Below, in pieces: positions 3,879 through 31,336 of a stretch of DNA of 64,000 nucleotides. The notes under the pieces were generated by a model. It saw only the letters and a list, made by a program, of their open reading frames with translations, did not search any database and had not been told where the DNA came from. Position 1 is the first letter of the stretch. The number at the start of each line of letters is the position of its first letter. The stretch comes from Deltaproteobacteria bacterium. GTDB lineage: Bacteria; SAR324; JACQKK01. Both the position numbers and the translations under genes were made by a program. The stretch spans positions 744,001 through 808,000 of the forward strand of contig JAOUEW010000001.1 in assembly GCA_029858505.1 (NCBI GenBank), written 5' to 3'.

Positions 3879-4217
3879 ATGAAAAAGTTGTTGATGGCTC
3901 TGCTTTCCGGCTTGATGCTGGCGGGTTTGGCTGGCGTGGCCAGTGCCGCCGACATGTCGGCTTTGGCTCCCTGCAAAAACTGCCACGACCTGTCCCCCGA
4001 AAAACGGAAAATCGTTGGTCCTCCGTTGTTCGGTATCTATGGTAGCAAGCCTACCATTGAAGGGCTTCCTGCCGACTACACGGTTTGGGATGACGCCCGT
4101 TTGGACAAATGGGAAGAAAAACCCCAAGCTGTGAAGCCCAGGTCTAAGATGAACTACCGCACGCCCTCTCCTGAGAAGCGCGCCGCGATCATCGCCGCCC
4201 TGAAAGAGCTGAAGTAG
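3879..4217 (+). CDS. Small monoheme c-type cytochrome, copy 1
   Basis: Periplasmic electron carrier. A cleavable signal peptide (MKKLLMALLSGLMLAGLAG, ending near ASA) precedes one heme motif, CKNCH. GPPLFGIYG follows, the conserved stretch after the heme in class I cytochromes c, and a downstream Met in SKMNY is the likely sixth ligand. At 112 aa (about 90 mature) it is class I size. The ATG at 3879 is preceded by ATGGAG. It is the first of three tandem paralogues and is followed by its own terminator, so the three copies need not be co-transcribed. Confidence 0.88.
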   Translation: MKKLLMALLSGLMLAGLAGVASAADMSALAPCKNCHDLSPEKRKIVGPPLFGIYGSKPTIEGLPADYTVWDDARLDKWEEKPQAVKPRSKMNYRTPSPEKRAAIIAALKELK

Positions 4218-4235
4218 TCTGTTTGGCAAGCAAAG

Positions 4236-4281
4236 AACAGCGCGGCTTCCTTTGGGGGGCGGCGCTGTTTTTTTGTTTTTT
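4236..4281 (+). terminator. Terminator after cytochrome copy 1
   Basis: AACAGCGC (4236-4243) pairs with GCGCTGTT (4262-4269) and a T-rich tail runs to about 4281, starting 19 bp after the cytochrome stop. Confidence 0.8.
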
Positions 4282-4458
4282 CGCGGTTTCCCATCTGGAG
4301 ATTTTCCCCGGTTCTTTTCTGGCCCTTTCTTGGTTTCTTTCTGGCTGAAAATGCGATTAGAATGGGTCCATACCAACGGATGGGAAGGCAATCCTGCCTC
4401 CATCCGAAAGGTTAGAAGTTGTTTTCCGGTATGGACCTATTTGCCAAGGAGGTGCCCC

Positions 4459-4779
4459 ATGAAAACGATCTTGTGGATGGTGGTTGGAGTTGTGCTGTTG
4501 GCCTATCCCCTAGCCGTGTCGGCGGGGCCGCTGAATGCGTGCACCAGTTGCCACGACATCACGGACGCCAAGCGCAAAGTCATGGGCCCCCCGTTGTTTG
4601 GGGTGTATGGCGCCAAACCCCAGACCGCCGGTGTTCCCTATGCCAAATGGGATGACGCCAGCCTGGATGCTTGGTTGAAAAACCCCAAGGCCGTGGTGCC
4701 CACGACCAAAAAAATGTTTAGCGTGCCCAACGATGCCAAACGGCAAGAAGTGATTGCTGCCTTGAAAGAGTTGAAGTAG
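4459..4779 (+). CDS. Small monoheme c-type cytochrome, copy 2
   Basis: Second member of the cytochrome triplet. It has a signal peptide (MKTILWMVVGVVLLAYPLAV), a single heme motif [22 protein letters not shown], and a late KKMF Met as likely axial ligand. A strong AAGGAGGT sits 5 nt before the ATG at 4459. The mature part is closest to copy 3 (both have [11 protein letters not shown]). Role: soluble periplasmic electron transfer; the partner oxidase or reductase is not in this window. Confidence 0.88.
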   Translation: MKTILWMVVGVVLLAYPLAVSAGPLNACTSCHDITDAKRKVMGPPLFGVYGAKPQTAGVPYAKWDDASLDAWLKNPKAVVPTTKKMFSVPNDAKRQEVIAALKELK

Positions 4780-4848
4780 GGCCGCCCAGGCAGCGGAATT
4801 CTTCCCGGTTCCGCTGTGTTTATCCACCACAAAAAACAGGAGACCTTC

Positions 4849-5172
4849 ATGCGTGCTGGAATCATCGGTGTTGCGGTGTTGTTGGTGTTCATCGGGCTGC
4901 CTTTGGCGGCCGCGGCAGATCCTCTGTCTAGCTGCAAAAGCTGCCACGATCTTTCCGCCGACAAGCGGAAGGTGATGGGCCCCCCCCTGTTTGGGCTGTA
5001 TGGAGCCAAACCCATCAATGCCGCTATTCCCGTGAAAAAGTGGGACGATGCCAGCCTGGACGCTTGGCTGGCCAACCCCAAAGATGTTCTGCCTGGCAAC
5101 ACCATGATGTTCAAGGTGGCCGACAAGGCCAAGCGGGATGAAGTCATCGCCGCCATGAAAGCCTTGAAGTAG
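4849..5172 (+). CDS. Small monoheme c-type cytochrome, copy 3
   Basis: Third tandem copy: signal peptide ending near AAAA, heme motif [22 protein letters not shown], and MMF as likely Met ligand region. AGGAG stands 8 nt before the ATG at 4849. Only 69 bp separate it from copy 2 with no clear terminator between, so copies 2 and 3 may form one transcript. Expansion of one small cytochrome into three neighbours suggests specialisation by redox partner or dosage; this is inference. Confidence 0.88.
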
Positions 5173-30204: not shown

Positions 30205-30386
30205 TTAACTTAGACGAACATTTTTTGTTTTTTAAAATGAGGGTAATTTTGTTCAAAGTATCTTCATTTTTCGCACGTCATCATACAATCATGTCCTTTG
30301 TTCAAAACAATCAGCGGGCAATTTGGCGAGGAATATTTTTTTGCAAAGGTGGGCCAATTTGCCCCACGGTGTTTCAATGCGAGTAG
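30201..30386 (+). CDS. Possible small ORF coupled to the RES gene
   Basis: A 61-codon reading frame overlaps the RES stop by 4 bp (ATGA) and ends in a TAG that lies at the edge of the chimeric tRNA. It is A+T-rich, Phe-rich at its start, and matches no family I know. It may be a real coupled gene cut short by the rearrangement, or chance. I give it low weight. Confidence 0.25.
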   Translation: MINLDEHFLFFKMRVILFKVSSFFARHHTIMSFVQNNQRAIWRGIFFCKGGPICPTVFQCE

Positions 30387-30457
30387 CGGGGGCAGGATTT
30401 GAACCCGCGACCCTCAGTTTGGAAAACTGATGCTCTAGCCAGCTGAGCTATTCCCGC
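30385..30457 (-). pseudogene. Chimeric tRNA: tRNA-Gly(UCC) body with tRNA-fMet 3' end
   Basis: The first 62 nt (acceptor 5' strand, D-arm, anticodon arm with TCC, variable loop, T-arm 5' strand) match the intact tRNA-Gly at 31263-31336. The last part, from the T-loop outward, matches the 3' end of tRNA-fMet at 31161-31234, including bases beyond the gene. The joint lies in the shared GGATTTGAACC. The gene is one base shorter (73 nt) and its 5' GCGGGAA cannot pair properly with the fMet CCCCGCT strand: with a one-base shift only about five pairs form. It probably does not make a charged glycine tRNA. Confidence 0.75.
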
Positions 30458-30576
30458 GGATGCCCTAAGAACTCCGGGTTCCCGCAAGATTCAGTTGATC
30501 CAAGCCAGATCAACAGAACAGAACCCCTGGAATTCCTTCATTTTTCTCATCTCTCTACACTGCAGGATGGAATGCG
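30395..30576 (-). repeat. 182-bp direct repeat, copy 1
   Basis: Nearly identical to 31274-31455 (five mismatches by eye over 182 bp). It contains most of the tRNA-Gly sequence plus 119 bp of its 5' flank, so the chimeric copy has inherited the upstream region and could be transcribed. Confidence 0.9.
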
Positions 30577-30635
30577 CTTGCTTCCTTCCTGCTTCACCAA
30601 CCGAACGGATGATTCAATGAACCGGTGGCTTTGAG
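30570..30635. repeat. Partial copy of the dispersed repeat tail
   Basis: ATGCGCTTGCTTCCTTCCTG and the following CACCAACCGAACGG match the tail of the inverted-repeat elements at 9.3, 26.4 and 55.6 kb. The second copy of the 182-bp repeat stops exactly at ATGCG, where this tail begins, so the repeat tail may mark a recombination boundary. Confidence 0.5.
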
Positions 30636-31099
30636 AGTCTGGACAGGCGGCGCAGCAGCCAAGCGTACCCCGCCCCCAGCAGTGCCCCGGCCAGCAGGTT
30701 CCACCACATCAGCAGCGAAACCCCCCAGAAAAGCACTAATTCCACCGGAAGTTTGACCCATGCGGCCCACCAGCTTTCATCTGGGGGGATGTTTCCCTTT
30801 ACGGTGACCCAGATCAGGATTTGAAAGATGAACAGCCCATGGGCCAGCACCGCACCCAGGGTTCCAGCCAGTGCCCCCTTGAGCAGGGAAGCCGGGCTCC
30901 CGGCTCCCCGCTCCATGATTTTCCGCCAAGCCAGGGTTGGCCCGCCCCAGCAAGCCAGCGCTGCCATCTCTGCCTGAATGAGTCCTGCTAGGCCCTCAGG
31001 CCAAGGGCCCGCCTGCCACCACACCAGGGCGAATCCCGGTGCCAGGCACACCAGCCCAAACCCCGCCGACCGCCGCCATTTGATGGGTTTTTCGTTCAT
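30614..31099 (-). CDS. Predicted membrane protein, unknown function
   Basis: 161 residues with four hydrophobic segments (about 10-30, 33-55, 70-100, 117-150) and a C-terminus rich in Arg. No recognised family. It lies between the chimeric tRNA and tRNA-fMet, inside the rearranged segment, and its last codons overlap a dispersed repeat tail, so the C-terminus may be altered. It is G+C-rich like the rest of the chromosome, not like the RES gene. Confidence 0.6.
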   Translation of the reverse strand: MNEKPIKWRRSAGFGLVCLAPGFALVWWQAGPWPEGLAGLIQAEMAALACWGGPTLAWRKIMERGAGSPASLLKGALAGTLGAVLAHGLFIFQILIWVTVKGNIPPDESWWAAWVKLPVELVLFWGVSLLMWWNLLAGALLGAGYAWLLRRLSRLSKPPVH

Positions 31100-31160
31100 G
31101 TGTATTCACGAGAGCAAAAAAAAAGCCGATCACGGATTTCGTGAGCGGCTGGTGTGGGAG

Positions 31161-31234
31161 TAGCGGGGGCAGGATTTGAACCTGCGGCCTTTGGGTTATG
31201 AGCCCAACGAGCTACCGGACTGCTCTACCCCGCG
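31161..31234 (-). tRNA. Initiator tRNA-fMet (CAU)
   Basis: A 74-nt cloverleaf. CAT anticodon in CTCATAA, with the three G:C pairs (GGG/CCC) next to the loop that mark initiators. The first base C is opposite a T at position 72, an unpaired end as in other initiator tRNAs. CCA is not encoded. Its 3' 25 bp with flank recur at the chimeric tRNA (30381-30405). Confidence 0.93.
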
Positions 31235-31262
31235 ATCAAGGATGGGAGGAAGGAGAAGGGAG

Positions 31263-31336
31263 AGCGGGAAACGGGATTTGAACCCGCGACCCTCAGTTTG
31301 GAAAACTGATGCTCTAGCCAGCTGAGCTATTCCCGC
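31263..31336 (-). tRNA. tRNA-Gly (UCC)
   Basis: Complete 74-nt cloverleaf: acceptor GCGGGAA/TTCCCGC with discriminator T, D-arm GCTC/GAGC, anticodon stem TCAGT/ACTGA with loop TTTCCAA, T-arm GCGGG-TTCAAAT-CCCGT (one wobble pair at the end). CCA not encoded. It is the intact partner of the chimera at 30385-30457 and is 26 bp upstream of tRNA-fMet on the same strand. Confidence 0.95.

Follow-up and report, generated by a model that had tools for sequence, protein, structure and literature searches.

Three tandem trimmed class I cytochromes c as candidate periplasmic electron carriers in a SAR324 bacterium

Three small c-type cytochrome genes stand in tandem in a SAR324 genome, raising the question of which electron transfer they serve and why the genome keeps three of them. 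The window analyzed here is a 64,000-nucleotide stretch of that genome, and the genes occupy positions 3879 to 5172 of its plus strand, from the ATG of the first to the final base of the last stop codon. C1 (3879..4217), C2 (4459..4779), and C3 (4849..5172) encode precursors of 112, 106, and 107 amino acids, with intergenic gaps of 241 nucleotides between C1 and C2 and 69 nucleotides between C2 and C3. Each protein carries a single CxxCH heme motif (CKNCH in C1, CTSCH in C2, and CKSCH in C3), and among the 52 called genes in the window this motif is confined to these three. All three also begin with a Sec-type signal-like sequence, and each gene has a purine-rich ribosome site immediately upstream. 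With cleavage sites chosen by hand, the predicted mature proteins are 89, 84, and 84 amino acids long. The initial annotation had described three paralogous monoheme cytochromes of about 90 residues, each with its own signal peptide; its coordinates prove exact, its size fits the mature rather than the precursor length, and its view of them as copies of one carrier, probably soluble, agrees with the sequences.

C2 and C3 are the closest pair by BLASTP (60% identity, E = 3e-45); C1 is 45% identical to each (E = 3e-33 to C2 and 1e-29 to C3). Exactly these three proteins match in the genome (2.79 Mb, 97% complete), with no fourth copy at an E value of ≤1. Between C2 and C3, dN is 0.267 and dS is 0.981; with dN well below dS, the pair is under purifying pressure.

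To which family do they belong? A profile of five members, comprising C1, C2, C3, and two copies in one related metagenome-assembled genome (MAG), G003, finds cytochrome cH (1qn2, chain 1qn2_A) as its best match among solved structures (E = 3.4e-12), with tuna cytochrome c (1cyc) at 6.5e-11, and 93 distinct solved-structure sequences match at an E value of ≤1e-4. In tuna numbering, which was taken from the alignment of a three-row profile to the solved structures, the members retain Cys14, Cys17, His18, Gly29, Pro30, Trp59, and an aromatic residue at position 82. They share with cytochrome cH and tuna cytochrome c the CxxCH motif, Gly29-Pro30, Trp59, the aromatic at 82, a C-terminal helix-like sequence, and, in four of five members, Met80. 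At the level of sequence, C1 to C3 thus resemble class I cytochromes c of the mitochondrial/c2 type. The Pfam model Cytochrom_C (PF00034) has a cut-off of 21.3 bits; C2 (17.2 bits) and C3 (15.9 bits) fall below it, and C1 gives no match. Other assignments were rejected. The Bradyrhizobium-type cytochrome c-550 CycA model (NF043008) scores 19.3, 32.9, and 21.6 bits for C1, C2, and C3 against an NCBIfam cut-off of 240 bits, and Magnetochrome (PF18509) matches C2 at 13.2 bits, through the heme motif only, against a cut-off of 30.4, with C1 and C3 unmatched at an E value of ≤1. A phage or viral origin was likewise dismissed: C3 has no tblastn match at an E value of ≤1e-5 in 50,697 phage records, and none of 26 peptide-pattern stretches from viral contigs was confirmed.

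The five members differ from cytochrome cH and tuna cytochrome c in several places. The number of residues lying between Gly37 and Trp59 is 21 in tuna, 14 in C1, and 12 in C2, C3, and both G003 copies, making this stretch 7 to 9 residues shorter than in tuna in all five aligned sequences. The trimmed members also have one residue less after Phe82. At the other end, the first heme cysteine is residue 14 in tuna; after the chosen cleavage, 8 residues precede it in C1, 5 in C2, 5 in C3, and 6 and 7 in the G003 copies, such that the N-terminal helix appears to be mostly gone. An aromatic residue (F, Y, or W) comparable to Phe10, anywhere among the seven residues preceding the first heme cysteine, is found in none of the five, and the position of Tyr97 in the C-terminal helix holds Ala in all five. 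Control c domains from the class, in contrast, keep both: the pre-heme aromatic is present in 44 of 46 and the C-terminal-helix aromatic in 45 of 46. The latter number is based on inspection, the pattern alone having counted 43; it missed a Phe in L021 and L027, L040 has Leu, and in L035 the hit lies behind the true Tyr. These 46 domains were drawn from 50 PF00034 loci, a few of them in the same genome as C1 to C3, after L032 and L034 (C2 and C3 themselves), L030 (a MauG fragment), and L026 (cut by a contig end) were dropped. Many are repeats of one kind and hence not independent, and the names c4 and c553 that we use for them are provisional labels.

The N-terminal shortening rests on the cleavage sites together with the missing aromatic, because the distance from the hydrophobic stretch to the heme cysteine (13 to 17 residues in the five members) overlaps that of 25 controls (16 to 50 residues). 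The hand-chosen sites have A-S-A, V-S-A, A-A-A, V-M-A, and A-L-A at their −3 to −1 positions; a loose −3/−1 rule also permits sites 9 to 15 residues before the cysteine in four of the five (not C3), mostly within the hydrophobic stretch. If the segment were left uncleaved, the proteins would be tethered carriers, with a membrane anchor helix replacing the missing N-terminal one, and a hydrophobic helix ending so near the heme could restore the lost contact. We consider this unlikely, since all five have a fitting hand-chosen −3/−1 site just past the hydrophobic stretch, as is typical of cleaved signals. AlphaFold2 models of C2 and C1, computed from 5-row alignments, had mean pLDDT values of 57.3 and 50.4, too poor to use, probably because the family has few relatives.

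At the level of sequence, the two changes at the ends of the protein may belong together. One study describes a conserved terminal-helix contact, formed by Gly6 and Phe10 with Leu94 and Tyr97, that steers folding and heme attachment, and the Phe10-Tyr97 contact across the terminal helices is said there to direct folding (PMC9380692). Losing the N-terminal helix together with the residue that it contacts on the C-terminal one would fit a single architectural change. Our search of the open-access literature found no description of small or N-helix-less cytochromes c, which is not proof of their absence in print; we regard the trimmed class I form as new and, so far, narrowly distributed.

That narrow distribution emerged from several searches. 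Across 40 genomes (C1 to C3's own and 39 relatives), five match at an E value of ≤0.001. G003 is the sole strong match beyond the home genome (4e-30 and 6e-26, on two contigs); G004, G005, and G032 match weakly (1e-4 to 7e-4). The G004 match (E = 1.4e-4) is a caa3-type oxidase cytochrome c domain (L005) on a contig shared with COX1; unlike the trimmed members, it lies within a longer oxidase subunit II-like protein, has a long tree branch, and retains Phe at position 97. Across the whole class, an E value of ≤1e-6 is reached in 4 of 52 genomes, namely the home genome and G003 with trimmed proteins and G005 and G032 with long-loop ones. A peptide-pattern scan of genome contigs, which requires exact short peptide matches and can let remoter relatives escape, confirmed 3 of 29 stretches; two of these represent the G003 copies, and the remaining one (L011, 60 matched bases) was taken as chance. 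Separately, G005 contains a cytochrome-like open reading frame (ORF) (L014:1275-1761) with a CxxxCH heme motif, CYKTCH, instead of CxxCH, and a Met80-like PGTWM.

Are the three copies simply a recent amplification? The mature part of C1 is 66% identical to the G003 copy on contig C18, compared with 54% to C2 and 50% to C3. Consistent with this, the phylogeny that the initial annotation had called for sides C1 with that G003 copy (support 99/98) and not with its window paralogues, and uniting all three window copies in one clade is rejected (p-AU = 0.012). The tree has long outgroup branches, and the sequences of those two outgroups and of 1qn2 were trimmed by hand. The pairing of C2 with C3 has support of only 40/0, and no well-supported branching order emerges for C2, C3, and the second G003 copy. 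Because C1 has its sister copy in another genus, type A (C1 and its partner copy on contig JAOUFO010000176.1) and type B (C2 and C3) probably split before the two genera parted, as judged from the sequences, and the array is probably not a recent dosage expansion. Their neighborhood was sought elsewhere too: when the TPR and LMWPc proteins encoded nearby were searched for in five relatives, G003 had no TPR match and an LMWPc match of 41% on a third contig.

These results bear on whether the copies are interchangeable, retained for the amount of one carrier. Such a dosage reading draws on the tandem layout, on the ribosome site of each gene, and on the similarity of sequence and charge: C1 to C3 have pI values of 9.2 to 9.4 (9.2 to 9.6 across the five members, whose net charges are +4 to +6). 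The near-identity on which the initial annotation would have dropped its proposal does not appear in the sequences. The divergence is deep, the residues at positions 80 and 81 differ among C1, C2, and C3, and the tree, with its long outgroup branches as a caveat, speaks against pure dosage for all three copies. For C2 and C3 alone, their weak pairing in the tree leaves more room for it. Taken together, we judge dosage improbable as the explanation of the set.

The copies differ at the position of the distal heme ligand. Position 80 is Met in C1, C3, and both G003 copies and Lys in C2, in an alignment with no nearby gap. Residues 80 and 81 are Met/Asn in C1, Lys/Met in C2, and Met/Met in C3. 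Either Met81 or Lys80 is a candidate distal ligand in C2, and a Met-Met ancestor like C3 would explain C2 as a register shift. The initial annotation had proposed distinct redox potentials for the copies; Lys80/Met81 in C2 is the one concrete hint in that direction. Tentatively, and with somewhat less than even confidence, we describe C1 to C3 as class I cytochromes c, specific to this lineage, in which the contact between the N- and C-terminal helices has been lost (the helix and both aromatics); in one paralogue, the register of the distal ligand would also have shifted naturally by one residue.

The copies may also be transcribed separately. Terminator-like hairpins running into T-rich stretches follow C1 (4228..4278, plus strand, z = −3.43) and C3 (5179..5202, plus strand, z = −3.63), and a hairpin without a T run lies between C2 and C3 (4790..4817, plus strand, z = −1.95). 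Shuffled sequences folded equally well in 1 of 200 cases for the C1 hairpin, 1 of 200 for that of C3, and 7 of 200 for that of C2. A consensus terminator scan listed only the C3 hairpin of the three, and its total of 3 equals the shuffle mean of 3.0, so there is no excess. The earlier claim that two copies have their own terminators therefore holds for the hairpins and T-rich stretches after C1 and C3, but the consensus scan bears it out for C3 only. Separate transcription signals for the copies are plausible.

An operon with redox partners was considered and rejected. In a Pfam scan, none of the ten neighboring ORFs encodes a cytochrome, an oxidase, or another electron-transfer protein; the neighbors are a lipid A acyltransferase, an HAD hydrolase, TPR and LMWPc proteins, a Cys/Met enzyme, FliN, SPOR, and DUF1330 proteins, and two without a family. 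Elsewhere in the window, three tRNA genes (Gly-TCC, Met-CAT, and Gly-TCC, the two Gly anticodons being identical) lie on the minus strand at 30383-31336.

Candidate partners are found farther away in the genome. One locus (L045:1008-8662, on contig C5) holds an alternative complex III (ACIII) cluster in ActA-to-ActF order: a pentaheme protein, a fused 991-amino-acid Mo/FeS protein, NrfD, ActD (PF11821), a monoheme subunit, and a second NrfD. This contrasts with one SAR324 pangenome study, in which no ACIII was reported; ACIII does appear, with cytochromes c553 and c4, in another SAR324 study (PMC4782131). The genome also has two COX1/COX2 pairs, an aa3-like oxidase (L041) and a second pair (L042). 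Both COX2 proteins contain a CuA-like C-x3-C-x3-H-x2-M motif, and CxxCH is absent from both COX1 and both COX2 proteins. With CuA motifs and no fused heme c, these two oxidases need a separate heme carrier, unless the complexes touch directly. One di-heme peroxidase-type (CCP_MauG) protein is encoded as well (L046).

Next to the second oxidase pair, at L042:5042-10021 (positions 27041-32020 of contig C10), a 526-amino-acid protein with cytochrome b (PF00033), 4Fe-4S dicluster, and FlpD (MvhD-like) domains is followed on one strand by a 194-amino-acid protein without a Pfam match and by COX2/COX1. G003 (L049) has cytochrome b, a 189-amino-acid protein without a Pfam match, COX2, and COX1 on the same strand, with one opposite-strand ORF between them. 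In G010, G012, G017, G020, and G024, too, cytochrome b and COX1 matches are separated by no more than about 3 kb. The arrangement possibly represents an unusual oxidase complex.

We consider it fairly likely that C1 to C3 are secreted, basic, one-heme periplasmic carriers of trimmed class I origin, with transfer from ACIII to the CuA oxidases as the most likely route. Their ancestor would have been a class I cytochrome c of the mitochondrial/c2 type, from which 7 to 9 residues of the 37-59 loop and the greater part of the N-terminal helix were lost. Types A and B would have separated before the genus split, with B present here twice. In the periplasm, the cleaved and heme-loaded proteins would take electrons from ACIII, and perhaps from other donors, and pass them on to one heme-copper oxidase or to both, at the CuA site; the di-heme peroxidase is a further possible acceptor. 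Support for this role comes from the class I homology, the signal-like starts, the basic pI, the purifying pressure on C2 and C3, the presence of the ACIII cluster and the two COX1/COX2 pairs, and the scarcity of other class I domains in the genome. Cytochrom_C matches at an E value of ≤0.001 number 2 in this genome, 1 in G003, and from 1 up to 32 in each of the remaining 50 class genomes. Weighing against this last point, counts are low as well where the family search gave no match (G006, G016, G022, G030, and G038), although several of those genomes are incomplete. Many of the Cytochrom_C matches listed, and those of g11 genomes in particular, sit in open frames of about 630 amino acids that contain several c domains. 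Against the role stand the lack of a neighboring partner gene and two other monoheme candidates outside ACIII in the same genome (L043:7756-8325 and L044:7359-7748). One study offers precedent on both sides: for Rhodothermus marinus it reports an ActE reactive toward soluble cytochrome c and also HiPIP, whereas the ACIII of Flavobacterium johnsoniae is argued to feed aa3 within a supercomplex, with no free carrier, and to react poorly with cytochrome c (PMC8552683).

In a further reading, each copy would serve its own donor or acceptor branch (aa3, the second oxidase, or the peroxidase), tuned near the heme ligand. Two CuA-motif oxidases and a CCP_MauG protein would provide such branches, the residues at 80 and 81 differ by copy, and separate transcription signals are plausible. 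No partner gene is linked to any copy, however, and the charges are alike; G003 carries its two copies on different contigs and shows three COX1 matches, so that the numbers do not pair one to one. Such a division of labor is conceivable, though we lean against it. The distinct partners proposed in the initial annotation are left unsupported, the five members being alike in charge and the ten neighboring ORFs holding no electron-transfer protein.

Within SAR324, C1 to C3 resemble the cytochrome c4- and c553-type proteins in being repeated, putatively periplasmic c-type carriers. The affiliation of the lineage was also examined through the SAR324-1412 probe target: an exact copy lies in the 16S gene of G028, from the same order, and a copy with one mismatch in that of G009, from the same family, with none in this genome or 49 others, which makes a SAR324 lineage probable. 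A Guaymas SAR324 bin has five cytochrome c4 copies in tandem, according to the SAR324 study cited above (PMC4782131), and because tandem cytochromes have already been reported there, the array itself is ordinary in kind. The trimming is the more unusual feature, and one that the initial annotation missed. C2 and C3, which differ at the Met80 position, would together serve as a natural experiment on it, and if the helix contact is truly lost, these proteins would offer a natural test of the minimal fold for a working carrier.
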